Part shown: piece by piece, positions 26 through 20,138 of the stretch
How the letters are laid out: the number at the start of each line of letters is the position of its first letter
Position numbering within the stretch: position 1 is the first letter of the stretch
From: Treponema sp.
GTDB taxonomy: Bacteria > Spirochaetota > Spirochaetia > Treponematales > Treponemataceae
Assembly: GCA_024691265.1 (NCBI GenBank)
Contig: JAILNT010000209.1
Span: 1 to 39,624, forward strand
Length of the DNA: 39,624 bases
Direction: 5' to 3'
Translations under genes and position numbers: made by a program
Notes under the pieces: generated by a model
What the model saw: only the letters and a program-made list of their open reading frames with translations
Database searches by the model: none
What the model was told of the DNA's origin: nothing

Positions 26-3000
26 TTACTCTTTCTTTAAGTATGCTGTTTCATAAGCATTAGAAGTCTTAAAGGCTACTACAGATTCAACAGTTGCAGG
101 AGTTGCTGTAGAAGGAGAAGCTCCGTCTACAGACTGTACATTCTGTAAAACAGAAGTTGTCTCACTCGTCCAGTTATTACTTGACTCAAGTGAAATTGTG
201 TTTTCCTTGAGGGCGTAATGACCGCTTCCAACTGAAGGAATAATCATGAAGTCCCAAGAAGCAGAACTTGAAGAAGCAGGAGCAGCTGTTCTGTATGCAT
301 ACTTCACAGCATTTGCAGTATTTGCCTTGTTAAGATAAGTCATTGTAGGAACATAACTTTCCCCGTCATAGTATACAGAAATACTACCGTATGAAAGAGA
401 ACCATTATCGTCAACAACTTCTTCACTAGCAAAGTTATAGCTGCCTGAAGAATATTTTCCGAAGAGATAACACATCTCGCCATCTTCATTGTTGTACATA
501 ATATGAATATTGTTAGCTCCATCAATCTTCATGCTTACCTCTCCAGAACAAGTTTTTCCAGTAGAAATTCTCGTCCACTGACTTGCAAGCGAAGGCTCGC
601 TAGAAGAAGCTACAGCAACACGAAGCTCTGAATTATTACCGTCATAATAAGCAACTACAGGATAGCCCTCTGTTGTTACATCTATTGCAGCAGAAGAACC
701 TGCAGAAGAAGACTGGTCATCTGCAGCAGAGAAAGAAGTTAAATCAGCAGTTGCTTCTCCTCCAACAACATTCATATCACCCTTATAAATAGTCGCTGTA
801 ATACTACCAATATTGTCACTTGTTAAGAAGCTAACGGCTTTATCCCAACCAATTGTCGCAGCACTACCATTATCATCTGTACCAGATACAGCCGTAATAG
901 TTCTAAGCTCAATCTTGTAAGAACCATTAGTATTCAAAAGAATTGCTACAGTATCTCCTACTTCAGGATTCAAAGCACCATCATAGAAACTTAACCCACT
1001 ATAAGAAAGTGAAGTTGTACTATAACTATTTGCAGAAGTGATATTGGTATTTATTACAAAAATTTCTGTAGAATAAACAGCACTATTGCGATATGTTCTA
1101 GCTTTAGACGCATCACCTATATCATCTTTGGAAACTGCGGAATGAATGTAATCAAAACTTGCAAGAACATTGTTGTATACATTCACAACTTCCTTATATG
1201 TTTTTCCTGCTGTTACACCACTGACAGTATTACTCTGTGTAAATGTGTGCAACCTATCCTGTCCAGTATAGCCACCGTCAAGGACAACCCAACCATTTAT
1301 AGCTCCACTGTTATAATTAAATTTGCTTTCATCACTTATATCTACTACTGAATATTTGAGGCTTTCAGAAACATTGTCATACCAGATATTGTGCAAATAG
1401 TTACCATAACGGGCAGATTGAGGATTCTCGAACGAACCGAGGCGACGATTTACGTCATAGCTTTCAAGGCTATAGTACGATGTTTTGTTGCCGCTAGAAT
1501 CCAGATTGAATGTCGGGTTTCCATCAACAGTTGCCGTATATCCTGAATATGATGTTGAATTCGTCATAAAATCAGACGGCAAGTTGATTGAGCCTGAACC
1601 ACCGACAATATGAGTACTAGACATACCGTTTCTACCGAATGTACCACCCGAACCCTGATGTTCAGGAATGAATGTTATGTTGGCACCACCACTAGTTCCT
1701 TTCTGGTCAAATGCGATTCCTGTATAAACAGAAGGCTGATCATAGCATCGGAATACGGCAGATGAAATTCCACCCAAGCCCTTGTTTATCATTATGTTCG
1801 AATTCGACTGAGCAGCCCATGACGCATAGAGATTTCCATCTTTGTCGGCAGTCATTACCGGCTGCTGAAGCTCTGCACCGTCGCTAGTATTGTTGAAGTA
1901 ATTACCAAGATTCCATACGCTCAAATATCTATTATCTGCTGCAGTGTATTTTGTAGAACTTCCTCCCATCTTGAATTCTTCAGAATTATAAGCTTCACTA
2001 TCAGAATTACTGTTATTCAAAGATGAAGTTCCACATGTTACAGTCAAAGCCCCGGAACGAGCAGGCACAGTCATTGTAAATGAAGCCCTTGCTGTTGCAG
2101 AACTATTTGTAGCAGTATAAGAAGTTTCTGTATTATTAGAACCTACAGTCCATGTACCTGCTGTTCCAAAATTAAAGCCTTCAACAGTAAGAGTTTCACC
2201 CTCTGCAACTGCATAACGACCGATATAAGAACGATTCATTGTACCGCCAGAAATTGTATCTTCTCTTGTAATATCTGTGATATATGGAACTACACTAATT
2301 TTATAGTAATTAGTTTTTGTGTCAGAACTTGTTTGTGTACTGCTTGCATCACTTTCAAGAGCAGAATCTGAAACAGTCTTTGCCTGTGTTGCTTTTACAG
2401 CAATAACCTTGCTTGAAGCATTTCCAAAATATGCAGTATCAAGCAATAAAGTCCAGTTTGCAGTGTGTCCGCTCTGGCTAATCTCTCCATCATCTTCAAC
2501 AGTTAAATTATAACCGTTGCTTGAAAGGTCGCCATCAGAAGACCAGCTAGCAGATTTTGCTGTATAGCTACTTGTCGCTATATTTTCCCCAGCATAAGAA
2601 ATAGTTACAGAAGCAAGTCTCTGGTCATCATATATACTACCTGTTAGTTTTACTACACCTGAAACAGAAGGAATTGTTCCAAGGTCTATATGACCCATTG
2701 CTGTACTATCATTGTAATAAATAGAATTATCAGATGAACTTGTCCAGTAGAATGGATTTATAGAGCTTGTAGGATTAACTTCGTCAACAACATCAATTAT
2801 AAAGTCACTTACATAAAGAACACAGTTCTGGCTGTCTTTTCCCTGTGTTTTTTCTTCTGTAGCGTCCCAGAATGTAAATGACATTTGCTTTCCGCTGCCG
2901 TCTGTAGTAGATGAAAGCTCATCTTCAGAACTTACACCTGCAACCGTTGTGCTATCAAGAATAAAGCCATACATAGAATAGCTCATTCCATAATTTGTAA

Positions 3001-6000
3001 CATAATTTGAATTGTATGCAGCATCAGTGAAAGTTACAGAATTGCTATCAGAGAATGCAACTGTTGCACTAGTTGAACTAATAGAAGAAAGTGAAACGTC
3101 ACTATCAAGCAGAGCATCTCCGCTTCCTTCTACAGGACTTGTAGTTGTTGAACTTGCATCTTGCTTGAATACCATCTTCAAGCCATTATTACCGCCTGTA
3201 AACTCTCCAATAACAGCAAGTTTATCTTTAATAGCAAAGGCTGAATCATATCCATAGCTACTAGCTGCTGTTTTAAGAGTATTTGTTGAAGAATATTCGT
3301 TAGAAGAATCTACACTCATTGCATAGCCCTGGAATTCAGAAAGTGACCATGAATCATCACCATTCAAATCTGTTCCAAGATAAACTTTTGCAAGGCGAGG
3401 AACATTATTTACAATTTCCGCACTCTGAACATATTGAGAAACATTACCAGCTTCATCAAATGCAAGAATTACAAGGGAAACAGGACCGTCTGCCATATTG
3501 CCGGAATGAATTGAAGCTGTCCATGACCATGAAGAACCAGAACTCTTGAATGTTTCAGGCATTCCGTCTCCATCGTCTGTTGTTGAGAAATTCCATGAGA
3601 AGCCATTATTATAGCTTGCAGTAGCAGCTTCTGTTGTAGCATCAATAACCTGAGCATAAGGGAAAGCGGCTGTAGTTGCAGTTCCGTCTGTTGCAGAAGC
3701 AAATGTAACCTTACCAGTACTGCTATCGATTGCAGTAATTACACGGTAAAGACCTCCGATATAAATAAGTCCACCATTTCTTATATGGCTGTTACCTGTA
3801 ATATCTTCTGAATTTGAAGGGGTAAAGCTTGTTGTATCTTCCTGACTTCCTTCAATTCCGCTCTTTCCGTACATATAATAACTTGAAGAATCTTGTGTTA
3901 TTTCAAAACTATCAAGATTATCTTTTATAATTTCCTTGCTAGAAGAAAGCATAGGATCAAGAATGCACTCATTTCCAGAAGTTAAAACATCATCTTCACC
4001 ACGCATAAAGTAGAATACAATCTTTTCTACTCCAGAACCTGTATCTGTTGAAGTTCCGCTAATCTTATAAGAGAAATTAGAATCTTCAATATCTGTTCTT
4101 GTTGAAGCAGAAGCAAATGCTTCATCATTACCCTTTATAGAAGAAAGAGTTGGAGCCTCATTATCAATATAAAGAGAATAAGTTGCTGTTGAAGAATGTG
4201 CAGTACCACTTGTTGAATTATCATAGGCTTCAACAGTATATGTTACGCTTGAAGATGATTTATCTACTGGAATATAAATTATTGCAGTATTAGCAGTAGA
4301 TGAAGAATCCACATAATAATCAGTATTTACAGTAAGCTTAGAAGAATTCTTTTTTACTGAAATTGTACTTGTATCTATTCCAGATTCATCTGTAAATGTA
4401 GAAACAATATACCAGTCACCTTTCAAATACATTCCTGATGTATAAGAATTTGTTGCAGATGCTGTTGCATTTGTAAAGCTTGTTCCATCTGTATAGCTTG
4501 AGCCGTTATCATATTGAGCCAAAATAGAGCTATAAGTTGGAGCATTCTTATCAATATATATTGTATAAGAGCTAGACCAGGCACCAATTTTTCCAAGAGC
4601 ATTAACAGCACAAGCCCTTACTCTTATCTCTCTTATATCGTCACTATCGTCATCATCAGGGTCAAGACCATTATTTGTATTAATGCTTATATTCCATGAA
4701 GAAGAAGACTTTGAAGCCTTTATACCCCACCAGTTACTACTAGTTGTTTCACTAGTCCAGCCTGTTATTTCAGTTACATCAGAATTATTAGACTGAACAT
4801 TTGTTAAAAGACTTTCAGCATCAACAATAGTATATCCGTCAGCACAAGATTCAAGATAAGTTGAATCATCAGAATCGAAAGAACCGTCATTGTCGTAATC
4901 TATCTGAAGATAAACAGAATCAACTGTAGTAGTTCCGCTTGGAATTTCTATAGCACCAGAAAGTCTTATTGTACCACTTAATGTGATGTAAGATTTTCCA
5001 GAATCATAATCATCTTCAGTAGGATAAGTAAAGGTTGTTACAGGCTTATCAGCATCAGGATTATGCTTCAAGCTAGACTTTAGAATACTTGCATTTCCAA
5101 GAGCATCTTTTGCCCTGAAATATACAGGTATTGTATATATACCGTCTGAATAAGAGCTGTAATAACTATCACTATCATAATTTTCAAGACTTGGGTTACT
5201 AGAAGAATCCAATACAAATTCCCACTGTAAAACAGAAGTTGTTTTTGTATTTCCACCCCAGAAACCTGTTCCTGAGCTAAGAGCCAAAAGTTCTGTATCG
5301 CTTAAAGCCTGCTGTTCAGTTGTAGGAATCATGTATTCAATAGACTCTACAGTTGAACCACCTGTATCAGTAGAAGAACCTACAAGACTTATACTGCCTG
5401 TAACCTCTTCAGAAGAAGATGGGCTTGTGAGATTAATTGTAGGACCTGTATTATCCAACATGAATGTGAAAGAGTTACTTCCAGAAAGTCCACTATTATC
5501 ATAAGAAGTTACTTTTACTGTAATAGAACCCGTTGTAAATGAGCTTAAAGGAATATCCCTTATATACCAGCTTGCAGAAGTTGAGCTTGTTGTAGTGTCG
5601 AATTCATCGCTATCAACTGTATAAGATGAATAATCTGTGTCTGCAATCGTTGAAGCTGTTGTATAATACAAAACACTATCTGTACTTGTACTTGAAGTTA
5701 AAGTTGCAATAATGCCGGCAATACCGTTTGCATCACTAGCAGTTATCTTAAAGTCAACAGTATTTGTATCTCCACCAAGAACAAGACCTGTAGAAATAGA
5801 AGTTGAAACTTCTTCATTATCTACTGTTGTAACATAAACCGCACTGTCTACAGTAGGAGAATTACTGTCGGCATTGTAATTCAAAGCATCCGTATTATCC
5901 ACAGTAGACGTATCAGCAGAAAGATAAAGATAAGGAACATACTTTACAGTATAACTTGTTGAATCCTCTGCGGTAACGCTTTCAGCTTCTTTTCCTGTAT

Positions 6001-9000
6001 AGAACACAGCACCGTTATTATCTACTACATAGAAATATACAGTATGTGCTCCATCGTTTGTATCATAAGGAGTGAAAGTCCATTCACCAGTAGAGCTATC
6101 AAATGTTGTTATATCATAAGAAGCAGAAGCTACGGCAACCTTAGTTGTTATAGTTGTTCCGCTTGTTTCACTTGTAACAGAGCTTGAATCAATAGCTGTA
6201 AGCTGACTTGTTGTTGCAATAAATGTAGTTACAACAGAATTGTCAGAAGAATCATCATCTGAAATACTACCAGAAATTTGAGCATTTTCACCATTCTTTA
6301 AAACATAGCTATCATTATAACTAGAAAGGCTTGTTACCTTTATTGTAGGTCGGTCTGAATCCTGCTTTGTTATAACAGTTTTACTTGCAGTTCCTTCATT
6401 TCCAGCCTTATCAGTCATAGTAAGCCTAAATGTTACAGAGCTTCCATCACTAACTTTTGTTGTATCAAATACACTAGAAGTCCATGAATAGCTTGTAGAA
6501 CCGTCTGTAATAGAATATTCTTCAACTTCTTCACTGCTATCATCAAGAAGCTTTATCACTGTCCAGCTTGAAGAATCAGAAACATCTCCTGTTGTATATT
6601 CAAGCTTTATCTTACTAAGATTTGTATCTTTTGCAGTTCCTGTCAAAGTAAGGTCTTTATTAACCTGAATGCCATCTGTTGAAGAATCTGCATCTGTTAT
6701 AGTGCTAAATGAACCTGTTGGAGCTGTTGTATCATATTCCAAAGAGAAAAGATTTACATTTGTAGCATTTCCAACATTATCACTAACAGTTACGGCAACC
6801 GTCCCTGTTGAGAAATTAGCCTTTGGAATTACAAGAGTCCATGTACTATCTTCTTTTGTTGCTTTTACAGAACTATCTGTTTTTAATACAACACTTCCAA
6901 TTCCTGAAGAAACTTTTGAATCAGAATCAGCAGAAAGAGTCTGTTCTGTGTCGCTTGCTGTAAGCTTAACAGTAACAGATTCTGTACTGCTATTTACATA
7001 TTTTACAAATGAAGAAGAAAGACTTGTTTCATCATCTACAGATACAAGCTCAATATTATCAGAATCAGGAGCCTGAGAATCAAAATAAGCAACTAAAGAA
7101 GATGTCCAATATGTAATATTTCCTGCAGTATCTGTTGCACGGAAATAAATATAATTCTTTGCATAATCGCTTGAAAGAACTGCTGTTGCAGAACCATTCC
7201 ATGCAGTAGATGAAGAAGAACTTGAAGAGGACATTGTACTCCAGCTTCCGCTTTCATCATAACTAGCTTTTGTAGATACCTGATATTCTACAGAAGAAAT
7301 ACCACTAGTTGCATCTGTTACACCAGCTCTAATTGTTACAGAAGAATTCTTATACCAAACACGAGTTACAGTTTCATCGTTTTCAGTAGCCTCATCTGTA
7401 TAAGTATAAGCTGTAGTTGTTATTGTTGGAATAAGACTACTTGAAGATACACTTGAACTATCAGTTGAATCATAAGCAGTTGTTCCAAATACAGGAGCTA
7501 CAGTATCTATTGTAACTGACCGAGTAAGCTCTTTTGTTTTAAAAGCTACATCAGTAGCCGTAATTGTAAAGTCATAGCTTCTATCAGAAAGATTAAGTTT
7601 ACTTAAATCAAGCGACCAGTTATAGTCACTTGGTTCCGATGTTGCAGCAGTAAGACTTATAAGAGAATCTTCATCACTACTGCTTAAAGTTTGATTATTA
7701 CCATCTGCATCAGTGTAAGAAACAGAAATAGAAGCTAATTCATTAGTATCCCATGCTTTTCCAGTAAGAGTAATAGCTTCATTTGTAGTTACGCTTGCAC
7801 TATGACTTTCAGTTAAATTTGGAGCTGCTGTATCATATACAAAGCTCACAGTATCAGAAGTTGTTTCATGACCAAGATAATCTGTTGCAACTACATAAAT
7901 TTCAAAAGCACCCTCGCTATCTCCTAATGAAAGATTTTCAACTTTCCATGAAATATCACTACCAACAGTAGAAGAAAGAGTAACTTCCTCGCCGTCGTAT
8001 AATTTTGTACCAGATTTTGTAAGAGTATATTTTAAGCTCTTTATGCCAGAACCTTCTTCTGTGAAGGTTCCCTGTATTGTTTTTGTTGTAGAAGAAACAA
8101 TTTCATCTGCAGAAGGGCTTATAATACTAACTACAGGAGCTGTTGTATCAACAACTAAAGTAAATGTATAGCTTGTACTTCTTCCAGCCTTATCTGTTAC
8201 AGTTAAAGTATAAACATAGCTTCCATCTGTAGAACCATCATTTACAATTTCCCATGTATTATCAGAAAGTGTAAGTTCTGTTTCTTCATTGTTTAATGTA
8301 TAACTAATCTTAGAAAGATAAGTTTCTGTTACTTCTCCAGAGAAAGTAACTTTACCAGTTGAATAATATTTTTCGCCAGATTCAACGGTCGTATCAGTTA
8401 AGGCATTTACATCACTATCATATAATTTTACACCAGTGTCAGGCGTCATAGTAATTGTTGAAGAAGGAGTATCCATATCAACTGTAATAGCTTTTGATGT
8501 TGTTGTGGAATTTCCTGCAACATCAGTTGCTACAAAAGAAACAGTATGTTCACCTGCTGTTGTAATTTCAGATAAATCTACACTTGCAGACCAAGTTCCC
8601 TTACTTGTATTCATAGAAACCTGAGTAGCATTACTAGTATCTGTATCAATATAATATTTTATGCTTTCAATTCCACTTACTGTATCAGACATAGTTCCTG
8701 TAAATGAAATTGATTCTGCATCATCTCCACCTTTTTTATAAACAGCAGTGTTGTTTGTAACAATATCTGCACTTCCATCTATTGTAGATAATTTTATAAT
8801 AGGAGCCGTTGTATCAACATAATAACTAATAGAATATGTACTTGCTTGTCCGTAAGCATCTGTTGCCGTATAAACAACAGAATAATTACCATCAGCTTCT
8901 GGAACAGTTATTTTATCAGTAAGATTAAATGTAGTTGAATCATCTTCAGACTCTGTAACAGAAAGAGTACTTGTACCATCACCAGAAGAAGTTACAGTTA

Positions 9001-11590
9001 AACCTCCACTTCCATCTGTTATGGTTGCAGAAACGTCAAAACTAGAACTATATGTATTTCCGCTTGAAGGAGTTACATTACTGAATTCAGGTGCTCCGTC
9101 ATCAATAGCAACAGCAAATACAGAATCTTTAAGAGTTGCATAAGATGTTTCATTTGCTGTATCGGTAACAACAAATTTCAAATCATATAAAGCTTCAGAA
9201 AGAGAAGCAGAAGCAGAAGCAAAAGAAACATTAGAAAGAGAATATGAAGTTGAATTTATATTTTCCTTTGTAAATAAAGCTTTATATTCACTGTCAGCTT
9301 CAGAATGCTTTTTGTAATAAATTACAACAGAACTTATTCCGTCATCATCTGTAACTGTTCCTAAAAGTTGATTATTGCTTTTTGTTCCAAAAATATTTGT
9401 TACAGAAACATTTGAATCAGCATAAGCGGCTTTTATACCAGCTGCATCAGTAATTTCTTTATTTGCATTACTCAAAGTTACGCTAGGAGCATCTGTAGAC
9501 TGGTCAAGCTTGTAAGAACCTGTATAGCTTCCTGTATTTCCAGCCTTATCAGTTGCAGAAACTGTAAGAGTAAGAGTATCACCGTCATTAAAAGCAGTTG
9601 TATCTATACTAGAAGCAGAGAAAGTATAACCTGATGTTAAACTTTCAGAACTAGAATTACCGCTTGCATCTTTTAAAGTGTAGCTCACAGAAGTTATTCC
9701 AGATAAATCACTTATAGTTCCATTAAAATTGATTTTTCCGTTAAGACAAATAGAACTATTTCCATCTGAATCCGTAACAGTAACATAAGGAGTCAAACTT
9801 GAAAGGCTGACTTCAGGAGCTGTCGTATCAAGATGAATAGAACGGGAAGCTTCTGCAGAAGTATTATTACTAGAATCAGTTGCAGAAATAGCGATTGTAT
9901 AAAGATAATTTACATCAGAATTATCTGCTGTAAATTCATGATAGCCAGAACCCTTTGTAATATCCAATGTCCATGCATAATCATCAGAATAACTTGCAGT
10001 TGTGCTGCCTGTTATTGTTGAATAAGCAGAAGGAACAGTGCTTGAATCTTCACTTGTAATAGTAAGAGTATAATTTACAGTAACATCATCTTCACCAGAA
10101 GCCGGAACTGCAGTACCTGTAAAGGTAAGACCTGCGGTTGTGTTTATATAAGAAAGAGAAGCAGGGCTTTCAATCTTTACTGTTGGAGGATTACCAGAAG
10201 CACTTAATTTAAAGCCGTAATAACCAGAATTAGGCTCTAAATCCAAACTTCCAGTATCTTCACCAGAAATAAGAATTAAATATGTACTTCCTTCTGCAAG
10301 TTCTGTTGGTAAAGTAAGAGACCATGTATAGCTTTCTACAGAACCAGAAGAATAAGAAGAATTATTTGCAAAATTGTAAACAGGGAAATCTGTGCTTACT
10401 TCATGGTCATCTGTTGCAGCAAAAGATTCTGGGTCAGCAACTATATTTTCTATTTCTTCACTGCTTTCACTTCCTGTAACCTTATACCAGTAAGCTTTTA
10501 ATGTTGCAGGCTTAATATAATTACCATCTGCACCAGGGCTTACTGTAACAGTAACTTTCTGACCAGAAACTGCAGAAAGATTAGCAAGAGCAGACATATT
10601 TGCAGCAGAATAACCGGCAATAGCGTATGTAGGACTTGCATTTTTATCAAGTGTGAAATATGTTCCAGTCTGTTCTATGCTTGCAAGCTTAGTTTTAACT
10701 TCCGCAACTTCTGATTCACTAAGAGATTCTGTAGAGCAATCATAAGTTCCGTTAATAATTTCCATAAGCTCTGTAACAGTAACGCTTGAAAGCAAGCTAT
10801 CTTCACTATAATCATCATATAAATAGCAACTTGTAGACTGATTACCAGCTTCATCTGTTAATGTTATTTCACAATAATAAGGGCTTGTCTGTGCATCATC
10901 AGCAGAACCATAAATAGAATTATAGTTATCATAGATAGTACCTGTACTGCTATCAGAATATTTTGCAATTACAACACTTGTACCGCCGGCTGTGCTTACA
11001 TTTGTGCTTGTATAAGAACCGTATTCAACAGATTTATCTGCATTATATACAGCAACTTCCATTTGTGAGATTGTATGGTCATCTGCTATCTCACCTGTAA
11101 TTTTGAAAGTTTTTCCGTATGCAGTAGGATTAGAAGAATCAACAGAAGCAGGGCTCTTCAATATGAAAACAGGGGCTGTATTATCTATTTCAAATTTGCG
11201 TGAAACTTCACCTGAAGAACGACCTGAACCATCATAAGCTGTAATAGTTGCAGTCCATTCACCATCTTCAAGGTCACCTTTCTTAAAATCATAAGACCAG
11301 GTATTCCCCTTTATAGAAGCGTAAATTGCGTCTTTTGTATATGTAACGGAATTAGAAAGACTTGCATAACTTAATATAATTTTTACAGAAGTAACGCCTG
11401 TATCATCGTCACAACTTCCGGCAAGAGAAAAATCACCGCTTATAACAGAATTAAGTTCAACGGAAGTAATACTTAAAGTAGGAGATTCTGTATCAACTTC
11501 ATCTCCAAGACCAACTTCACAGGCAGAAAATACCAATGAAACAAGAGCAATAAGTATTGGTAAAACAAAAACTTTTTTAAGACCATACAT
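26..11590 (-). CDS. Giant Ig-like repeat lipoprotein (3854 aa)
   Basis: Predicted surface or periplasmic lipoprotein; no enzymatic role is visible. The start is set at the ATG at 11590 because a GAAGGGG ribosome site (11600-11606) lies 9 nt upstream; the ATG at 11596 is too close and still earlier starts lack a site. The N-terminus is YGLKK, a hydrophobic stretch, then a lipobox ending FSAC. From about residue 45 to 2750 there are roughly 14 or more Ig-like modules. Their boundaries show as recurring D-T-T-A-P, D-N-T-A-P or D-K-A-G-N motifs, about 90-110 residues apart in the clearest stretches. Around residues 3100-3180 is an IPT/TIG-like segment (VAEGETLTVEGFNFG). The last 650 residues contain short repeats such as MTADKDGNLYASW and VTTEGYPVVAYYDG, suggesting a beta-propeller. 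The protein is very rich in Ser and Thr. There is no cell-wall anchor, consistent with a diderm spirochaete. It lies 115 bp downstream of the other Ig-repeat gene and is probably co-transcribed with it. Adhesin or envelope scaffold is a guess from architecture. Confidence 0.85.
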   Translation of the reverse strand: MYGLKKVFVLPILIALVSLVFSACEVGLGDEVDTESPTLSITSVELNSVISGDFSLAGSCDDDTGVTSVKIILSYASLSNSVTYTKDAIYASIKGNTWSYDFKKGDLEDGEWTATITAYDGSGRSSGEVSRKFEIDNTAPVFILKSPASVDSSNPTAYGKTFKITGEIADDHTISQMEVAVYNADKSVEYGSYTSTNVSTAGGTSVVIAKYSDSSTGTIYDNYNSIYGSADDAQTSPYYCEITLTDEAGNQSTSCYLYDDYSEDSLLSSVTVTELMEIINGTYDCSTESLSESEVAEVKTKLASIEQTGTYFTLDKNASPTYAIAGYSAANMSALANLSAVSGQKVTVTVSPGADGNYIKPATLKAYWYKVTGSESSEEIENIVADPESFAATDDHEVSTDFPVYNFANNSSYSSGSVESYTWSLTLPTELAEGSTYLILISGEDTGSLDLEPNSGYYGFKLSASGNPPTVKIESPASLSYINTTAGLTFTGTAVPASGEDDVTVNYTLTITSEDSSTVPSAYSTITGSTTASYSDDYAWTLDITKGSGYHEFTADNSDVNYLYTIAISATDSSNNTSAEASRSIHLDTTAPEVSLSSLTPYVTVTDSDGNSSICLNGKINFNGTISDLSGITSVSYTLKDASGNSSSESLTSGYTFSASSIDTTAFNDGDTLTLTVSATDKAGNTGSYTGSYKLDQSTDAPSVTLSNANKEITDAAGIKAAYADSNVSVTNIFGTKSNNQLLGTVTDDDGISSVVIYYKKHSEADSEYKALFTKENINSTSYSLSNVSFASASASLSEALYDLKFVVTDTANETSYATLKDSVFAVAIDDGAPEFSNVTPSSGNTYSSSFDVSATITDGSGGLTVTSSGDGTSTLSVTESEDDSTTFNLTDKITVPEADGNYSVVYTATDAYGQASTYSISYYVDTTAPIIKLSTIDGSADIVTNNTAVYKKGGDDAESISFTGTMSDTVSGIESIKYYIDTDTSNATQVSMNTSKGTWSASVDLSEITTAGEHTVSFVATDVAGNSTTTSKAITVDMDTPSSTITMTPDTGVKLYDSDVNALTDTTVESGEKYYSTGKVTFSGEVTETYLSKISYTLNNEETELTLSDNTWEIVNDGSTDGSYVYTLTVTDKAGRSTSYTFTLVVDTTAPVVSIISPSADEIVSSTTKTIQGTFTEEGSGIKSLKYTLTKSGTKLYDGEEVTLSSTVGSDISWKVENLSLGDSEGAFEIYVVATDYLGHETTSDTVSFVYDTAAPNLTESHSASVTTNEAITLTGKAWDTNELASISVSYTDADGNNQTLSSSDEDSLISLTAATSEPSDYNWSLDLSKLNLSDRSYDFTITATDVAFKTKELTRSVTIDTVAPVFGTTAYDSTDSSSVSSSSLIPTITTTAYTYTDEATENDETVTRVWYKNSSVTIRAGVTDATSGISSVEYQVSTKASYDESGSWSTMSSSSSSSSTAWNGSATAVLSSDYAKNYIYFRATDTAGNITYWTSSLVAYFDSQAPDSDNIELVSVDDETSLSSSFVKYVNSSTESVTVKLTASDTEQTLSADSDSKVSSGIGSVVLKTDSSVKATKEDSTWTLVIPKANFSTGTVAVTVSDNVGNATNVNLFSLEYDTTAPTGSFSTITDADSSTDGIQVNKDLTLTGTAKDTNLSKIKLEYTTGDVSDSSSWTVIKLLDDSSEEVEEYSITDGSTSYSWTSSVFDTTKVSDGSSVTFRLTMTDKAGNEGTASKTVITKQDSDRPTIKVTSLSSYNDSYVLKNGENAQISGSISDDDSSDNSVVTTFIATTSQLTAIDSSSVTSETSGTTITTKVAVASASYDITTFDSSTGEWTFTPYDTNDGAHTVYFYVVDNNGAVFYTGKEAESVTAEDSTSYTVKYVPYLYLSADTSTVDNTDALNYNADSNSPTVDSAVYVTTVDNEEVSTSISTGLVLGGDTNTVDFKITASDANGIAGIIATLTSSTSTDSVLYYTTASTIADTDYSSYTVDSDEFDTTTSSTSASWYIRDIPLSSFTTGSITVKVTSYDNSGLSGSNSFTFMLDNTGPTINLTSPSSSEEVTGSISLVGSSTDTGGSTVESIEYMIPTTEQQALSDTELLALSSGTGFWGGNTKTTSVLQWEFVLDSSSNPSLENYDSDSYYSSYSDGIYTIPVYFRAKDALGNASILKSSLKHNPDADKPVTTFTYPTEDDYDSGKSYITLSGTIRLSGAIEIPSGTTTVDSVYLQIDYDNDGSFDSDDSTYLESCADGYTIVDAESLLTNVQSNNSDVTEITGWTSETTSSNWWGIKASKSSSSWNISINTNNGLDPDDDDSDDIREIRVRACAVNALGKIGAWSSSYTIYIDKNAPTYSSILAQYDNGSSYTDGTSFTNATASATNSYTSGMYLKGDWYIVSTFTDESGIDTSTISVKKNSSKLTVNTDYYVDSSSTANTAIIYIPVDKSSSSVTYTVEAYDNSTSGTAHSSTATYSLYIDNEAPTLSSIKGNDEAFASASTRTDIEDSNFSYKISGTSTDTGSGVEKIVFYFMRGEDDVLTSGNECILDPMLSSSKEIIKDNLDSFEITQDSSSYYMYGKSGIEGSQEDTTSFTPSNSEDITGNSHIRNGGLIYIGGLYRVITAIDSSTGKVTFASATDGTATTAAFPYAQVIDATTEAATASYNNGFSWNFSTTDDGDGMPETFKSSGSSWSWTASIHSGNMADGPVSLVILAFDEAGNVSQYVQSAEIVNNVPRLAKVYLGTDLNGDDSWSLSEFQGYAMSVDSSNEYSSTNTLKTAASSYGYDSAFAIKDKLAVIGEFTGGNNGLKMVFKQDASSTTTSPVEGSGDALLDSDVSLSSISSTSATVAFSDSNSVTFTDAAYNSNYVTNYGMSYSMYGFILDSTTVAGVSSEDELSSTTDGSGKQMSFTFWDATEEKTQGKDSQNCVLYVSDFIIDVVDEVNPTSSINPFYWTSSSDNSIYYNDSTAMGHIDLGTIPSVSGVVKLTGSIYDDQRLASVTISYAGENIATSSYTAKSASWSSDGDLSSNGYNLTVEDDGEISQSGHTANWTLLLDTAYFGNASSKVIAVKATQAKTVSDSALESDASSTQTSSDTKTNYYKISVVPYITDITREDTISGGTMNRSYIGRYAVAEGETLTVEGFNFGTAGTWTVGSNNTETSYTATNSSATARASFTMTVPARSGALTVTCGTSSLNNSNSDSEAYNSEEFKMGGSSTKYTAADNRYLSVWNLGNYFNNTSDGAELQQPVMTADKDGNLYASWAAQSNSNIMINKGLGGISSAVFRCYDQPSVYTGIAFDQKGTSGGANITFIPEHQGSGGTFGRNGMSSTHIVGGSGSINLPSDFMTNSTSYSGYTATVDGNPTFNLDSSGNKTSYYSLESYDVNRRLGSFENPQSARYGNYLHNIWYDNVSESLKYSVVDISDESKFNYNSGAINGWVVLDGGYTGQDRLHTFTQSNTVSGVTAGKTYKEVVNVYNNVLASFDYIHSAVSKDDIGDASKARTYRNSAVYSTEIFVINTNITSANSYSTTSLSYSGLSFYDGALNPEVGDTVAILLNTNGSYKIELRTITAVSGTDDNGSAATIGWDKAVSFLTSDNIGSITATIYKGDMNVVGGEATADLTSFSAADDQSSSAGSSAAIDVTTEGYPVVAYYDGNNSELRVAVASSSEPSLASQWTRISTGKTCSGEVSMKIDGANNIHIMYNNEDGEMCYLFGKYSSGSYNFASEEVVDDNGSLSYGSISVYYDGESYVPTMTYLNKANTANAVKYAYRTAAPASSSSASWDFMIIPSVGSGHYALKENTISLESSNNWTSETTSVLQNVQSVDGASPSTATPATVESVVAFKTSNAYETAYLKKE

Positions 11591-11705
11591 ACGCATAAAC
11601 CCCTTCACTACAAATAGCATTTTATAAATAAACAAGCGTGATAAACTCTCTACTTTCTATAACTCTTGTTTTATATTTTTATATATTTTCTATAATTAAT
11701 ATCTT

Positions 11706-14700
11706 TTAGAATACATTTACCCTTGCACCTACAGAAATCTGGAATACCATATTTTCAACACTTGAGTTACCCGAAGAAGAAATATCAGACGGGATAAACC
11801 AAAGCTGAGGTTCTGTGTAAAGTGAGAAAGTACGGAACATCTTTCTTCCGTAAATAGTCACCTTAGGGAATTCAAGCTGAGCTATAAGAGCTGAAAGAAT
11901 CTGAGCTTCTCCACTACCACTTTCATCAAAACGAGTAAAGTTTGCTCCTATAGCAAGAGAACTTGAAAGCCAGCTCCAATCCGGCCCAAATAAAGACCTG
12001 AAAGGCAAATAACCAACATTTGCAAGAATCTTAAGCCCCATTACATTGCTGCCACCGTATCTCATGTTAGTTTTGCGGAACATATTTCTTTGTGACTGTG
12101 TAAACTGTCCCCATTGAGCCTGAAGTTTTACGTTATCATCAAAGAAAGTTAATCCCACACCAACATTAAAGAGAGTTGCACCCCAGAATTGACTATCAAA
12201 ATACAAGCCCTGAATAAAGCCTGGAATCTCATAAGCTCCCTTATCACCTTTTCTTAAAGAAAGAGTTACTCTCTTTAAGCCGATATTGTCTGCTGCAAGA
12301 CCTGAAAATTCTAACTTCTGGTTATATCTTCCGCCTGCATCTGGAGCTATAAGTCTTACAGTAGGCTTTGTGTGGTCAATCTGAACAATGGCACGAGTTA
12401 CACTTGTTGCACCATCTATTGCAGTTGCCTTTACAAGTATGAAGTGGAAACCTTCTTTCATGTCTTCATTTTCGATTCTGTACTTCCATTCATTTTTGTT
12501 TTTAGCTACAGTTTTGAATGTTCTTCCATTGTCGAAACTGATTTCAATAGATTCAATTTCCTTTGTGCTTAAAAGCTCTTTTATTTCTTTCTTTTTAAGT
12601 CCAGCTTTTTCTTCTTCCGGAATATCATCTTCTGTGAATACATAACCTGCACGACCACGAAGATAAGGGCGGTTATAAGCAAAATCACCATAAACAAATT
12701 CATTAGAAGCAAAATTATCTATAGTTACCCAGCAACCCAAAGCCGTATATTCAATATTTTCTAAAGGAGAAAGTATTCTGTCTTTTTCAGTTACAGCTGC
12801 CACCTGAATTGAATGGATTCCATCTGTAAGAGAAACAGCATCAGGGCCTAAAGAAAACTTGTAATAACCAGATTCAGAAAGTTTTGTAACCGCAACAGGA
12901 ACGTTATCAACTAAAAGCTCAAGACTTCCAACTTCATGTTCACTTTCTACCTGACCATAAATATTGAAATCACCCTGCAAATGCTGTCCGTTCAAAGGAT
13001 AAAGCAAAGAAACTTCTGCCACAGGAGATTCTTTATCAAGCCCTACATTACGGCTTATACGAGTAATATTACCAGCAGCATCTGTTCCAACAAGTTCAAT
13101 GTTATAAACACCACTGTTCAAACTAGAAATATCAAAAGCCTGTGTGATAATAGAATCAGGTTTTAAATTTATACTCTTTAATTCTTCAGGAATTGCATTT
13201 CCTTCAAGACTGCTGATATTTACATAAAGAGTTTTTAACTCAAGGTTATCTGTTGTTTGACCAGAAAGGAAAATTGTTCCAGATGTTTTTGAACCGTCTA
13301 AAGGAAGTTCAAGATTAAGATAAGGAGAAGTATTATCTGTTGTAAGCATGCTTGAATAGAATGCTTTTATTCCGTACCAGTCTGTAATTCTTATAAATAC
13401 AACATGTGTTCCATCTGGTACGACATTTGTATCAAATGTATATTTCCATGTAATATCCTGTTTTTCATGACTGTATTCAGCTACAGCTTTATTATAAGTA
13501 TTTCCGTTATCAATAGAAATCTCTATGAGAGAAATACCGTTTTTATCACTTGCAGTACCTTCAAGAGTTACCATATCGCGTACAGTTGTACTAATAAGAG
13601 GTAATGTCATTTCCCCCTTAGGTTCTTCCAATGAAACTCTAAACGGACGCTGCACTTCATGACCTTTTACACCGTGTAAATCTTCTGCATAAACAGTTAT
13701 TACATGTTCATTGTCAGTAAGTGACTTTATAGGAATATCAATAGAATACTTAAAATCCATTCCGTCTAATTTCTGATATTCATTATCATCTATTTTCCAG
13801 TAAATCGAACAAGGACCATCATCATCATAAATAACACCTGAGATTACAAAATCCCTTGTCATTACGGCATTTTCTTCAGGTAAATGTATTTCTGACACCG
13901 GTAAATCAGATTCAGCATCGATTATAAAATCATACTTATTTATTTTTAGAACATTACCGCTTGCATCAGTAAAATCAAATTCCATGTCATCTTTCAAAGG
14001 ACTTGCACTTGTACCAACATACATATTTGGCATCATAGAAACTGCCATTGGAGTTCTCATATCTCCAGCATATTCAGCCATAGACACAAGACCTGCATCT
14101 TTTACAAGGAATGCAATTATATTTTCACCGTTTATAACATCTCCACTTTCAGGGATTATTACTTCGGCTTCCGGTGCAATCGTATCTTTTTGAACTGCTG
14201 TTGCAGCATAACCTGTTCTTCCACAGCTATTTGTTGCTCTAATATCAATTCCCAAAAGACCATCTTCAAGAGAAGATACATCAAGTTCTGTTCCAAAAGT
14301 TAATTCATAAGAAGCAGTTTTCGTAGCTGGAAGTTCTTTCCAATTCAAACCGCCGTCAAGAGAATATTCAAGCTTAGAAAGTTCTACAGTATCTGAAACT
14401 TTTCCAGAAAGCTGCACAGTATTCTGTATCCATCTTCCAGAAATTGGATTTTCAATAGATATAACAGGTTCATTTGTATTTACAGTAAAAGAAATTTCAT
14501 CTGTTGTATATTTTATTCCGTTCGCATCTTCTACAGTAAGAGAAATATTGTCATATACGCCGTCTTCTTTTGCAACAATATTTATTAAGCTGTCTGTTAC
14601 AGAAAGTTCAAGACCTTCGGCTTTTCCGTTTAATTGAGCTTTAACAGGAAGAGGAACATTTGCATAAGCTTCTATAGAATCATTGGCACGCATTAAAGCT

Positions 14701-17138
14701 TCATGTTTTATCCAATATACTTTATTAGAATTATCTATAAGCTCTGCATCTTTTTCCCTTACTACACTTATTGAAGCTACAACTCTTGCACTTGCACCGC
14801 TTTTTGTTTTTATGTCTGCAACAATACCGGTAAGACGAGAAGGAAGATTATAAAGATAAATCTTTGCTTCATAGCTTCCGTCATCATTCTTTACAAGCTC
14901 AGCTTTTCCATTTTGCATAGCGTCTCCGCCATGAGCCTCAGGTCCTGTAATAGAGTAGAGTACTTCTGTTATAACTTCATTTGTCTGAATATTTAATACT
15001 GCAACTTTATCAAGCTCTTTCTTTGACTGATAAGAAAGAGGAATAGTCATTCCGCTAAGATAGGTTTTTCCGCAAACAGTAGAAAACCAGGCTTTAATAG
15101 GGTTTGTTTCTTCGCTTGCAGATACAAAAGTTAGAGGTCTACTTTCATACTTCAAGCCCTGATTAGTTGTAACAACAACCTTTACACTTTCGCTTTTTCC
15201 TTCTTCTGAAGTTGTGTGAATCACAATAGAATTACCTGCTAAAGAAGCCTTTGCAAAAGGAGTTTCAGGAACAATTTCAACTTTTTCTGCTACTCCGCCT
15301 ACAAAATAGCCTGATATAGGGTGTTCTACATCACAAACAACAACACCTTCCGGGCTTACAGTACTATCAGAGAAAAATACATTTGTATCAAAAACAGAAA
15401 TATGAGTAAGGTCTTTTACATTTACTTCATATTTTTCTGTATAAATCTTTCCATTTATGTTCTTTGCATTAATTTCTATCTCAACAATTCCCCATGGACT
15501 ATTGTCGAAGGGAATATTTACATTTACTTTATTTACACCAGGCTTTAATACAATGTCGTTTTCTTCGCCTTTCTTTCCGTTACAAGTGAATGTATACCAA
15601 ACTCTTTCAAGACCATCAAAAGAAGTTACATCTGTTACAAGCTTTGCATTACTTTCACTTTCTATAAGCATTCCATCTGAGAAATCTGTATTGCCATCAG
15701 CATTAGAAATATATGCAGCAGAAATTAGCGGGTGCTCTTCAAGTACATTAAATAAAACTGTCTGCTCATGGCTTTCAACACCGTTTTTATCAATAGCAGT
15801 TACAGAAATTGAATGCTTTCCGTTAGTAAGTTCTGGAAGCAGAACAAAAAAAGCTCCTTCACTAGAAAGACTATTAACTTCGCCGCCATCTATTTTATAT
15901 CTGATTTCTGCAACACCATCATCATCTGTTGCAAGCCCTCTAAGATATGAATATTTAACTTTCTCATGTTCAATGTTCATATTTTCAAAAGGAGTCTGAA
16001 TAGAAAGAATAGGTCTGTCTAATTCCTGATTAAGAAGAATTTCGTGTTTTACTGTTGTTACGTTACCACTTTCGTCACTAGCCGTTACAATAAAATCCAT
16101 GCTTTTTTCTTTACGGCCAACAGTATCTACATCTTTTACCCAATAAGGATTACCCGGTACAAGCTCAAATTCTCCGCTTTCACTACCGAATCTCCATGTA
16201 AGTTTTTTAACGCCTAAAGTATCCTTTGCATAACCGGCTACAGTAAACTTTCCTTTATTTATACTGCCAGTTTTTGGATAAACAACTTTTACTTCTGGAG
16301 CAGTATTATCTATAAAATATAAGAAAGAATAGATATTTTCTGTGTCAAAATTATCAGAAGCCCTGAACCATATTACAGTAGGCCCATCAGGGAGCTTTGT
16401 TGTATCTACTGGAACTTTGAAATTCCAATGACTCTTTAATCCTTCTTCATTTACAGCCTTATATTTTTCTTCTTTGATTTTTGCAGGTAAAAATGTTTTT
16501 CCGCCATCAATGCTATAGCTTAAGCTTTTTATACCGTTACCATCTTTTACTTCTCCGGAAAGATTTATTTTTCCAGATACAAGCTGACCCATTGTATGAT
16601 TTGTTACCTGTGTTGTAGGTTGTCGTCTGTTAAGCTGCCAGCTAATATGATGAGCATGTCCCTTTAAGCCGTTTATATCAACGCCATAAGCATCTATTGT
16701 ATGAAGTCCTTCAAATAAATCATTAGTATCAAGATAATAAGACCAGAATTCTTTTCCTTCTGCTCTTACCGGATTTTCTGCATCACCATCGAGAATGAGT
16801 TCAACATATTCAACAGCATCATCATCAGCACAAACACCAACTATATTTAAGTTGCCTGTTACTTCCATGTTTTCAAGAGGATTTGCAATTTTTGTTACAG
16901 GTAAATCAGATTCAGGGTCTACATAAATATTAAAAGGTCCACCGTACTGAGTATTTCCACCCTTATCATCAACAGTAACTAAAATGTTATATTTTCCTGG
17001 CTTTTTATTTTCGAGGTCAAATTCTTCCTGCCAGCTATCCATTTTTTCAACATTTTTACTTTCAACCCTATTGCTTTTAGCCTGTAAAAAAACAGGTAAA
17101 CAAACCATCACCATAACCAATAAGAAGCAATTCTTCAT
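11706..17138 (-). CDS. Ig-like repeat protein with C-terminal predicted outer-membrane beta-barrel (1810 aa)
   Basis: The start is the ATG at 17138, 10 nt after AAGG; an in-frame TTG three codons upstream is too close to that site. Residues 1-20 form a signal peptide (MKNCFLLVMVMVCLPVFLQA). About 11-12 Ig-like modules follow to about residue 1630, marked by boundaries such as FIDNTAPEVKV, TVNTNEPVISI, TTDNTSPYLNL and QIDHTKPTVRL, with repeated phrases like SLDGG or SIDNG and GLKSLSYSI. From about 1640 to the end the composition changes to alternating aromatic/polar strands (GLYFDSQFWGATLFNVGVGL, FGPDWSWLSSSLAIGANF, VTIYGRKMFRTFSLYTEPQL) and the chain ends in a C-terminal Phe. This is the pattern of an outer-membrane beta-barrel inserted by BAM. 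The order resembles a type V passenger followed by a translocator, but I recognise no named autotransporter domain. It has its own promoter at 17234-17262 and precedes the giant lipoprotein gene. Confidence 0.85.
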   Translation of the reverse strand: MKNCFLLVMVMVCLPVFLQAKSNRVESKNVEKMDSWQEEFDLENKKPGKYNILVTVDDKGGNTQYGGPFNIYVDPESDLPVTKIANPLENMEVTGNLNIVGVCADDDAVEYVELILDGDAENPVRAEGKEFWSYYLDTNDLFEGLHTIDAYGVDINGLKGHAHHISWQLNRRQPTTQVTNHTMGQLVSGKINLSGEVKDGNGIKSLSYSIDGGKTFLPAKIKEEKYKAVNEEGLKSHWNFKVPVDTTKLPDGPTVIWFRASDNFDTENIYSFLYFIDNTAPEVKVVYPKTGSINKGKFTVAGYAKDTLGVKKLTWRFGSESGEFELVPGNPYWVKDVDTVGRKEKSMDFIVTASDESGNVTTVKHEILLNQELDRPILSIQTPFENMNIEHEKVKYSYLRGLATDDDGVAEIRYKIDGGEVNSLSSEGAFFVLLPELTNGKHSISVTAIDKNGVESHEQTVLFNVLEEHPLISAAYISNADGNTDFSDGMLIESESNAKLVTDVTSFDGLERVWYTFTCNGKKGEENDIVLKPGVNKVNVNIPFDNSPWGIVEIEINAKNINGKIYTEKYEVNVKDLTHISVFDTNVFFSDSTVSPEGVVVCDVEHPISGYFVGGVAEKVEIVPETPFAKASLAGNSIVIHTTSEEGKSESVKVVVTTNQGLKYESRPLTFVSASEETNPIKAWFSTVCGKTYLSGMTIPLSYQSKKELDKVAVLNIQTNEVITEVLYSITGPEAHGGDAMQNGKAELVKNDDGSYEAKIYLYNLPSRLTGIVADIKTKSGASARVVASISVVREKDAELIDNSNKVYWIKHEALMRANDSIEAYANVPLPVKAQLNGKAEGLELSVTDSLINIVAKEDGVYDNISLTVEDANGIKYTTDEISFTVNTNEPVISIENPISGRWIQNTVQLSGKVSDTVELSKLEYSLDGGLNWKELPATKTASYELTFGTELDVSSLEDGLLGIDIRATNSCGRTGYAATAVQKDTIAPEAEVIIPESGDVINGENIIAFLVKDAGLVSMAEYAGDMRTPMAVSMMPNMYVGTSASPLKDDMEFDFTDASGNVLKINKYDFIIDAESDLPVSEIHLPEENAVMTRDFVISGVIYDDDGPCSIYWKIDDNEYQKLDGMDFKYSIDIPIKSLTDNEHVITVYAEDLHGVKGHEVQRPFRVSLEEPKGEMTLPLISTTVRDMVTLEGTASDKNGISLIEISIDNGNTYNKAVAEYSHEKQDITWKYTFDTNVVPDGTHVVFIRITDWYGIKAFYSSMLTTDNTSPYLNLELPLDGSKTSGTIFLSGQTTDNLELKTLYVNISSLEGNAIPEELKSINLKPDSIITQAFDISSLNSGVYNIELVGTDAAGNITRISRNVGLDKESPVAEVSLLYPLNGQHLQGDFNIYGQVESEHEVGSLELLVDNVPVAVTKLSESGYYKFSLGPDAVSLTDGIHSIQVAAVTEKDRILSPLENIEYTALGCWVTIDNFASNEFVYGDFAYNRPYLRGRAGYVFTEDDIPEEEKAGLKKKEIKELLSTKEIESIEISFDNGRTFKTVAKNKNEWKYRIENEDMKEGFHFILVKATAIDGATSVTRAIVQIDHTKPTVRLIAPDAGGRYNQKLEFSGLAADNIGLKRVTLSLRKGDKGAYEIPGFIQGLYFDSQFWGATLFNVGVGLTFFDDNVKLQAQWGQFTQSQRNMFRKTNMRYGGSNVMGLKILANVGYLPFRSLFGPDWSWLSSSLAIGANFTRFDESGSGEAQILSALIAQLEFPKVTIYGRKMFRTFSLYTEPQLWFIPSDISSSGNSSVENMVFQISVGARVNVF

Positions 17139-17233
17139 TTTTTTCAAACCTTAAAATATCTTTAATTGCAAAAATGCTTAACTTGTATAAATATAATTAA
17201 TATTTAATTTTGTTTATTTAGATAGGGAACGAT

Positions 17234-17549: not shown

Positions 17550-17561
17550 TTGACATATCCT
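17533..17561 (+). promoter_or_regulatory. Possible sir2 promoter giving a leaderless mRNA
   Basis: TTGATT and TATCCT are separated by 17 bp. The expected start of transcription, about 7 nt after the -10, falls on the A of the ATG at 17568. No convincing Shine-Dalgarno sequence precedes that ATG, which is consistent with a leaderless transcript. Confidence 0.35.
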
Positions 17562-17567
17562 TTATTC

Positions 17568-18314
17568 ATGGCATCTACACAAGAACAAATTGAACAGCTG
17601 CAAAGATTCATAGATGAAAGCAGCAATATAGTATTTTTTGGTGGAGCTGGTGTATCAACAGAAAGCGGTATCCCAGATTTCAGAAGTGTTGACGGACTCT
17701 ATCATCAAAAATGGGACTATCCGCCAGAAACAATATTAAGTGCAACATTCTTCCATGAAAAAACAGCCGAATTCTACAGATTTTACAGAGAAAAGCTTAT
17801 TATAAAGGGTGTTAAACCAAATACAGCACATAAAAAACTTGCAGAACTTGAAGAAAAAGGAAAATTAAAAGCCGTTGTCACACAGAATATTGACGGACTT
17901 CATCAAATGGCAGGAAGTAAATGTGTATATGAACTTCATGGCAGCACATTAAGAAATTACTGTACAAACTGCCATGAAGCCTATGATATAGACTTTATAG
18001 CTAAAAGTGCAGAAAATGCAGACGGCATACCTCATTGTAAAAAATGCAATGCAATAGTAAAACCAGATGTTGTTCTTTATGAAGAAGGCTTAGACAATGA
18101 AGTTGTAGACGGAGCTATAAAAGCAATTTCAAATGCAGACATGCTTATAATAGGAGGAACTTCACTAACAGTTTATCCTGCAGCCGGTCTTGTTACCTAT
18201 TACAAGGGAAATAAACTTGTTGTAATAAACAGAGATGCAAATGCTAACGATGTTTATGCAAATCTTGTTATTCACGATTCAATCGGAAAAGTTTTAGGAC
18301 AGATAAAGGCATAA
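17568..18314 (+). CDS. cobB: Sirtuin NAD-dependent protein deacylase (SIR2/CobB family)
   Basis: Removes acyl groups from protein lysines using NAD+ in the cytoplasm. At 248 aa it has typical bacterial length. Visible motifs are GAGVSTESGIPDFR for NAD binding (residues 26-39), TQNIDGLH (105-112), the catalytic His124 in ELHG, two zinc Cys pairs (CTNC and CKKC), and GTSLTVYPAAGL for the NAD ribose site. I use the ATG at 17568; an in-frame TTG at 17550 would add six residues but lies inside the promoter-like region and has no better ribosome site. It stands alone on the plus strand, converges on parB and shares a bidirectional hairpin terminator with it. Whether it acts on acetyl, succinyl or other acyl groups cannot be read from the sequence. 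Confidence 0.93.
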   Translation: MASTQEQIEQLQRFIDESSNIVFFGGAGVSTESGIPDFRSVDGLYHQKWDYPPETILSATFFHEKTAEFYRFYREKLIIKGVKPNTAHKKLAELEEKGKLKAVVTQNIDGLHQMAGSKCVYELHGSTLRNYCTNCHEAYDIDFIAKSAENADGIPHCKKCNAIVKPDVVLYEEGLDNEVVDGAIKAISNADMLIIGGTSLTVYPAAGLVTYYKGNKLVVINRDANANDVYANLVIHDSIGKVLGQIKA

Positions 18315-18318
18315 AAAA

Positions 18319-18350
18319 ATACGGGGAAATATTCCCCGTATATATTTATA
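18319..18350. terminator. Bidirectional terminator between sir2 and parB
   Basis: A perfect 10-bp stem (ATACGGGGAA / TTCCCCGTAT, 18319-18341) encloses a 3-nt loop. It has A-rich sequence on the 5' side and T-rich sequence on the 3' side, so it can serve both convergent genes. Confidence 0.85.
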
Positions 18351-20058: not shown

Positions 20059-20138
20059 AATAACTAGTGTATCATTTTTTGTTTTTGAAGTATACACTAT
20101 TTTTTCACAAACTAAGCAAGACATTTTCAGGAGTCTTT

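Follow-up and report, generated by a model that had tools for sequence, protein, structure and literature searches.

In a 39,624-nucleotide contig of a Treponema sp. genome (hereafter the window, meaning the whole stretch of DNA that was analyzed), we find a giant Ig-repeat lipoprotein encoded next to a second Ig-repeat protein that ends in a predicted outer-membrane β-barrel. Across spirochaete families, the two genes are retained or lost jointly, and the proteins are therefore very probably partners in an undescribed system of the cell envelope. We see about an even chance that the pair forms the two halves of one spirochaete system, in which a family of giant surface lipoproteins relies on the barrel protein as its conserved outer-membrane partner. 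This reading is built on the sequence architecture of both proteins, the predicted barrel, a family motif, co-occurrence and synteny. The window is contig C223 of a genome of 2.43 Mb in 452 contigs that is ~88% complete.

Architecture of the two proteins

Both genes lie on the minus strand, the barrel-protein gene upstream and the giant lipoprotein gene downstream, as open reading frames uninterrupted by stops and separated by 70 bp. Together with the Pfam matches to Big_13 and Big_7, these frames (26..11635 and 11706..17147) confirm the original prediction of two giant same-strand genes with Ig-like modules. The features are as follows, in window positions:

26..11635, minus strand: giant GLG-family lipoprotein gene, 3,869 aa counted from the first TTG, with its stop at 26-28
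11596 and 11590, minus strand: candidate ATG starts of the giant lipoprotein gene
11519..11590, minus strand: signal peptide and lipobox LVSLVFSA-C39, from the sequence; Cys39 codon at 11519-11521
11492..11521, minus strand: family signature CEVGLGDEVD right after the lipid-attachment Cys, from the alignment of members
2336..11503, minus strand: Ser/Thr-rich array of Big_13/Big_7-type Ig-like domains, from Pfam and composition
2006..2296, minus strand: VPYI segment and TIG/IPT-like domain, conserved; borderline in Pfam
29..1918, minus strand: predicted β-propeller C terminus (low-confidence model; best fold matches to PLL/PHL and AAL-type fucose-binding lectins)
11636..11705, minus strand: intergenic gap of 70 bp, in which a terminator-like site was sought and none found
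11706..17147, minus strand: barrel-protein gene, 1,813 aa; likely ATG at 17138, as originally predicted
17076..17138, minus strand: Sec signal peptide MKNCFLLVMVMVCLPVFLQA without a lipobox, from the sequence
12228..17045, minus strand: Big_7-type Ig-like array, conserved well near both ends and less at residues 500-900
11709..12209, minus strand: C-terminal 8-stranded β-barrel domain, residues 1647-1813, with an invariant final Phe

Promoter-like sites were no more frequent than in shuffled sequence.

In the barrel protein, Pfam detects Big_7 over seven stretches (E = 5.7e-61), as well as Big_13 and Big_3_3. The AlphaFold2 model of residues 1289-1813, computed with 62 orthologues, has a mean pLDDT of 82 and reaches ~90 over most of the barrel domain. 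Eight strands are predicted at residues 1647-1811, within a C-terminal domain of ~165 residues, and the in-out alternation of hydrophobic and polar residues is strong in most of them. Phe is the final residue in 101 of 101 full-length orthologues, a C-terminal Phe being the usual barrel-assembly signal. The signal peptide, the eight strands and the terminal aromatic residue place the modeled protein in the class of BAM-assembled outer-membrane barrels, and the C-terminal outer-membrane barrel of the original prediction is thereby supported. The model further suggests a small barrel that would anchor its own protein and form no wide pore. In the Pfam and NCBIfam scans, no profile specific to the barrel sequence was found. 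A sequence search of the PDB with the barrel profile returned only a generic adhesin Ig domain and one chance match, and Ig domains dominated the Foldseek matches of the barrel model, among which no barrel relative could be named.

In the giant, the lipobox LVSLVFSA-C39 closes a hydrophobic signal segment, with EVGLGDEVDTESP directly after Cys39. The lipobox and its Cys are conserved across 51 distinct sequences, themselves selected by the motif, and are invariant in 18 that were aligned; in the family motif C-x-x-GLG-xx-VD-xx-P, those 18 show no variation at C, GLG, D and P. A lipobox with a conserved Cys after a hydrophobic signal marks the giant, by its sequence, as a predicted bacterial lipoprotein, in agreement with the lipid anchor first proposed for it. 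Ser and Thr make up 29% of the giant in the window. Pfam matches Big_13 (E = 1.3e-18, six stretches), DUF4625 and, weakly, Big_7, and from the length of the protein we estimate ~30 Ig domain-equivalents. The lipoprotein N-terminal profile also matches an Ig stretch of the barrel protein (E = 6e-7). This match and the Pfam make-up indicate that the Ig modules of the two proteins are related but not one repeat.

The last 750 residues of the giant contain a conserved VPYI...G.Y.V..GE....GFN segment that resembles TIG/IPT, followed by propeller-type repeats. The IPT/TIG segment noted at the outset falls within this conserved stretch but is borderline in Pfam, which finds it in one of 14 members (E = 0.39). 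The model of the C-terminal head has a mean pLDDT of 50, with ~82 over model residues 571-660. Its best PDB matches, consecutively at the top, are Photorhabdus PLL/PHL fucose-binding lectins (E from 6e-6), and the next are a putative Pseudomonas aeruginosa neuraminidase, glycosidase propellers and AAL-type lectins. The suggested propeller-like C terminus thus has β-propeller lectins as its closest folds, and the test for PLL/AAL-type lectins gave a propeller fold match, but from a model of low confidence; a PDB sequence search with a profile of the giant C terminus gave no match. Many β-propellers are enzymes or are not lectins, and we treat a carbohydrate-binding head, as modeled, as a lead only.

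The giants beside other barrel orthologues are also Ser/Thr-rich lipoproteins with the same signature after the Cys, mostly ~1,500 to 6,000 aa long, with an overall range of ~1,500 to >7,000 aa. The TIG-propeller module, detected with a separate profile, occurs in frames as long as the GLG frames (for example, 3,305 aa on G020:C20, 3,918 aa on G003:C18 and 6,178 aa on G048:C1). The equal lengths of the frames carrying the two ends argue for a single architecture of lipobox, GLG motif, Ig array, TIG and propeller.

Neighborhood, divergence and co-occurrence across relatives

We compared synteny in 79 named loci, kept out of 236 relatives in the GTDB collection, all from Treponema or Spirochaetaceae/Spirochaetales and including Brucepastera; barrel orthologues are present in T. 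ruminis, T. zioleckii, T. bryantii and others, and these three are among the loci kept; the assignment of the window to Treponema is thereby borne out. A giant adjoins the barrel gene on the same strand in 35 of the 79, mostly 7-500 bp away. The GLG motif identifies 33 of these, and in the other two (L138 and L142) a giant with its N terminus cut off lies directly upstream. Within Treponema loci, the orientation of an adjacent pair is always the same, with the giant on either side of the barrel gene; in order-level relatives, it is often ~1 kb upstream. Other families of the class have it directly downstream (G207, G294), upstream (G160, G242) or convergent (G064, G171). The 2.8-Mb complete genomes of another Treponemataceae genus encode a 1,556-aa barrel protein and, 21 bp further on, a 2,144-aa GLG lipoprotein. 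Conservation as neighbors in related genomes, on which the original prediction had staked itself, is therefore found in many genomes. Many T. bryantii-like genomes carry the barrel gene alone and the giants elsewhere, so the two genes are not jointly transcribed as a rule.

Directly upstream of the barrel gene in the window lie a divergent Sir2-family gene and then parB/parA (17550-20124), a placement that recurs in many relatives. At 34789-39624 on the plus strand, we also observe Wadjet type I defense genes, cut off at the end of the window, with matches to JetA (DUF3375, E = 5.8e-96), JetB (E = 1.1e-50) and the start of JetC (E = 5.8e-206). After the barrel gene, genomes of the T. bryantii-like clade have genes for a 371-374-aa secreted protein, a TPR-like protein and a 779-791-aa protein, and then mnmE. 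This block replaces the giant at G015:C11:404518-410989 and G024:C8:211518-217856, and in G015 two GLG-type lipoproteins come after it. In another class of the phylum, G072:C28 (L262:1868-19380) carries a distant barrel relative and then two large lipoproteins in tandem, in which GIG and GAG take the place of GLG.

In some lineages, genes for membrane-anchored proteins or lipoproteins of 306-371 aa lie between the giant and the barrel gene. This family has no Pfam match and shows a faint similarity to substrate-binding proteins; its members include G056:C81:16022-16942, G048:C1:2244436-2245524, G055:C2:52152-53267, G047:C43:15752-16828, L255:12123-13121 and L264:6213-7172. G048 carries several copies, of which two or more lie close to other GLG lipoproteins. 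We rejected a substrate-binding-like third gene (f4, f5, f6) as a universal component, as clear matches occur in only four of 59 relatives and in none from the window's genus.

The two families differ in rate and in number. Across the 79 loci, identity in the barrel protein is 45% over 99% of its length, rising to 62% within the barrel domain; for the giants, the figure is 17% over 55% of their length (45 compared, some cut by locus ends). Reference identities from the neighborhood are 74% for ParA, 55% for ParB and 66% for Sir2. As a rule, the barrel gene is single in a genome, while several giants are often present, in some cases in tandem (G001:C2, G003:C18, G009:C76, G028); G003 has three tandem giants on C18 and its barrel gene far off on C7. 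One conserved hub with several variable clients fits these data better than two equal adhesins.

Among 59 relatives, a profile of lipobox, GLG and first Ig domain finds a GLG lipoprotein in 44 of 44 barrel-positive but only 1 of 15 barrel-negative genomes. The counts are 74 of 74 versus 1 of 19 in the order-level part of a phylum sample of 295 genomes, each at least 90% complete, which overlaps with the 59 relatives, and the 11 other barrel-positive genomes listed from the same class all have a GLG lipoprotein. The Fisher p values (~1e-12 for the 59 relatives and ~3e-18 at order level) are descriptive, ignore phylogeny and are inflated by phylogenetic non-independence. Four genera (g1, g14, g22 and g24) each include genomes with both genes and genomes with neither, so the correlation does not derive from one ancestral split. 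The TIG-propeller module, as a second marker, is found in 40 of the 44 barrel-positive genomes and in none of 14 with neither gene. The claim that the two proteins belong together therefore gains support from both sides: many genomes have the genes side by side, and gain or loss of the two families is joint even where they are unlinked. Genomes with both families may also simply be richer in Ig-repeat surface proteins.

Each sample contains one exception. G321, from the 295-genome sample, has GLG lipoproteins and no detected barrel gene. In G007, among the 59 relatives, the GLG frame is interrupted by a stop codon at the contig end and the propeller is present only as short fragments (L273 = G007:C168:5001-15158, minus strand, frame 5453-10156); this frame is perhaps decaying after loss of its barrel partner. 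The barrel gene is also absent from the 1.0-1.2-Mb genomes G099, G113 and G137. G099, a 1.1-Mb single-contig genome of genus g22 and the smallest of its family, lacks both genes, and the other sampled members of g22 have both; in size it resembles the reduced treponemes of the syphilis type.

Models for the probable partnership

We infer physical contact between the two proteins, a surface location, glycan binding and an order of assembly as follows. The barrel protein would be secreted by Sec and then inserted by BAM through its C-terminal 8-stranded barrel, with its Ig rod most likely extending into the periplasm or along the membrane, and would act as the conserved, usually single-copy platform, in one version an anchor or stabilizer of the giants. 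The giant would be tethered to the outer membrane near this platform by its lipidated Cys and GLG-VD linker, and its Ig-domain stalk would carry the TIG/propeller head at the distal C terminus. The head would probably bind glycans, which would make the giant a surface adhesin fiber. A surface stalk with such a head would follow the anchor-extension-adhesion layout described for filamentous adhesins (PMC7616799).

An unlikely alternative makes the barrel protein a delivery factor in the outer membrane, either a flippase or an assembly partner, dedicated to GLG lipoproteins. The periplasmic Ig rod would recognize the GLG-VD linker, and the barrel, with or without BAM, would move the lipidated N terminus to the outer leaflet, by analogy with Slam and the neisserial lipoproteins or with RcsF interlocked with OmpA. 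The invariant motif lies immediately beside the Cys that is lipidated, the very place expected for a delivery signal, and one barrel protein has several clients. In their distribution across genomes, these clients depend on the barrel almost absolutely. The sole GLG frame found in barrel-less G007 is broken by a stop, whereas G321 has GLG lipoproteins without the barrel. The substrate genes are often adjacent, as they are for Slam, and spirochaetes are said to lack Slam and probably to have an undiscovered lipoprotein flippase (PMC7857515), but the eight-strand pore here is too small, the domain organization is unlike that of Slam and no DUF560/Slam family match was found. Because an eight-stranded barrel is too narrow to translocate folded domains, export would need a BAM-assisted or interlocked mechanism. 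In addition, the small genomes G099, G113 and G137 argue against a general spirochaete flippase, as they lack the barrel gene. That the barrel protein is a delivery factor for GLG-VD-marked surface lipoproteins, and the first spirochaete counterpart of Slam, is in our view unlikely, as is the accompanying idea that a small barrel and an Ig rod take the place of a large pore.

It is also doubtful that both proteins are periplasmic. The spirochaete periplasm is wide, and with the lipoprotein held at the inner or outer membrane, the Ig rods could bind each other or peptidoglycan to form a scaffold controlling how wide or how stiff this compartment is. A stalk of ~30 Ig domains would however exceed 100 nm at ~4 nm per domain, and the fast divergence, varying length and lectin-like head of the giants are more typical of surface proteins. 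The strongest argument for a scaffold comes from the barrel protein, whose Ig domains are strongly conserved, unlike typical surface-exposed parts, so that a periplasmic location of these domains is at least as likely as a surface one. Moreover, BAM substrates with a C-terminal barrel leave their N-terminal part in the periplasm by default. A complete genome of the same family (G099) does without the pair, which speaks against such a scaffold. Finally, it is very improbable that the two are unrelated ordinary adhesins that are neighbors by chance and co-occur through shared ancestry or lifestyle: Ig-repeat proteins are common and the genes are unlinked in many genomes, but the points against it are that the two are lost or gained jointly across families and inside at least four genera, that they recur as same-strand neighbors in both orders, and that the barrel is single-copy and the giants multi-copy.

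Reviewers expect that an undiscovered outer-membrane translocation system brings spirochaete lipoproteins to the surface (PMC7857515). The pair is a specific candidate for this role: its signal is recognizable, its presence or absence follows a rule across genomes, and some of its hosts can be cultured (T. ruminis, T. bryantii and T. zioleckii). This makes the surface-delivery question testable for GLG-class lipoproteins. As two halves of one surface system, the pair would add a very large, lectin-like-tipped and probably surface-located protein family to the envelope of gut and, judging from genome size, probably oral treponemes. Given the head model, the giants are plausible tools for attaching to mucus or plant glycans.

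Comparison with known systems

That the pair belongs to no named system, as originally stated, holds in the libraries and open-licence papers searched. We found no described Treponema pair of giant Ig-lipoprotein and barrel protein in the open-licence literature; a T. denticola match there is TDE0362 (T-Mac), a different protein. The defining features tested (a DUF560 profile, 14 strands, TPRs and POTRA/TpsB) are absent, so we do not count the pair as a member of a named system. The barrel protein has no PF03797 match and eight strands instead of the 12-stranded barrel of type Va autotransporters, and its barrel is C-terminal, not N-terminal before the Ig domains as in intimin/invasin (type Ve). 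With regard to two-partner secretion (TpsA/TpsB), neither protein has a POTRA/TpsB or TPS-domain match, and the barrel is small compared with one of 16 strands. The eight strands recall OmpA, but here they are C-terminal and lack an OmpA domain.

The Lig proteins of Leptospira (LigA, LigB and LigC) are surface-exposed lipoproteins built from Ig-like domains in tandem; in LigB and LigC, a distinct extension follows at the C terminus (PMC7821625). The giant is likewise a giant spirochaete lipoprotein of tandem Ig-like domains. It has a lipobox but no Big_2 (PF02368) match in the Pfam scan, and we therefore exclude it from the Lig family. In place of the Big_2 domains of Lig, the giants have Big_13/Big_7 domains, the GLG motif and a TIG-like and propeller head; in addition, they are often two to three times longer and are tied to an outer-membrane barrel protein, whereas the passages of PMC7821625 considered name no outer-membrane partner of Lig.

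Slam is an outer-membrane barrel with an N-terminal extramembrane domain, often encoded beside its lipoprotein client (PMC7857515), and the barrel protein resembles it in all these respects. Slam, however, combines TPRs with a barrel predicted to have 14 strands and occurs mainly in proteobacteria. The barrel protein has Ig domains and eight strands in their stead and no DUF560/Slam match in Pfam or NCBIfam, and we do not count it as a Slam. In the RcsF-OmpA complex (PMC4942254; PMC7553776), a lipoprotein is combined with a barrel in such a way that its lipidated end is brought to the surface. RcsF itself is a small sensor of stress whose folded domain is periplasmic, and a likeness to RcsF-OmpA interlocking would be one of analogy.

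In CdrA/CdrB, a second protein, an outer-membrane barrel, keeps a long repeat adhesin at the cell surface (PMC7616799). There the C terminus of CdrA is retained through the CdrB pore, whereas in the pair the tether would be an N-terminal lipid and the predicted barrel is small. Like the giant adhesins LapA, MpIBP and GhpA, the giant combines a tandem Ig-like extension with a distal, here putative, binding head. Foldseek and sequence searches both match giant-adhesin Ig domains, the sequence similarity being limited to generic Ig domains. LapA, MpIBP and GhpA use other export routes and have no lipid anchor. By analogy, we liken the pair in its logic to Slam and its clients and to CdrA/CdrB, and propose it as a new form of surface-adhesin/outer-membrane-partner system.
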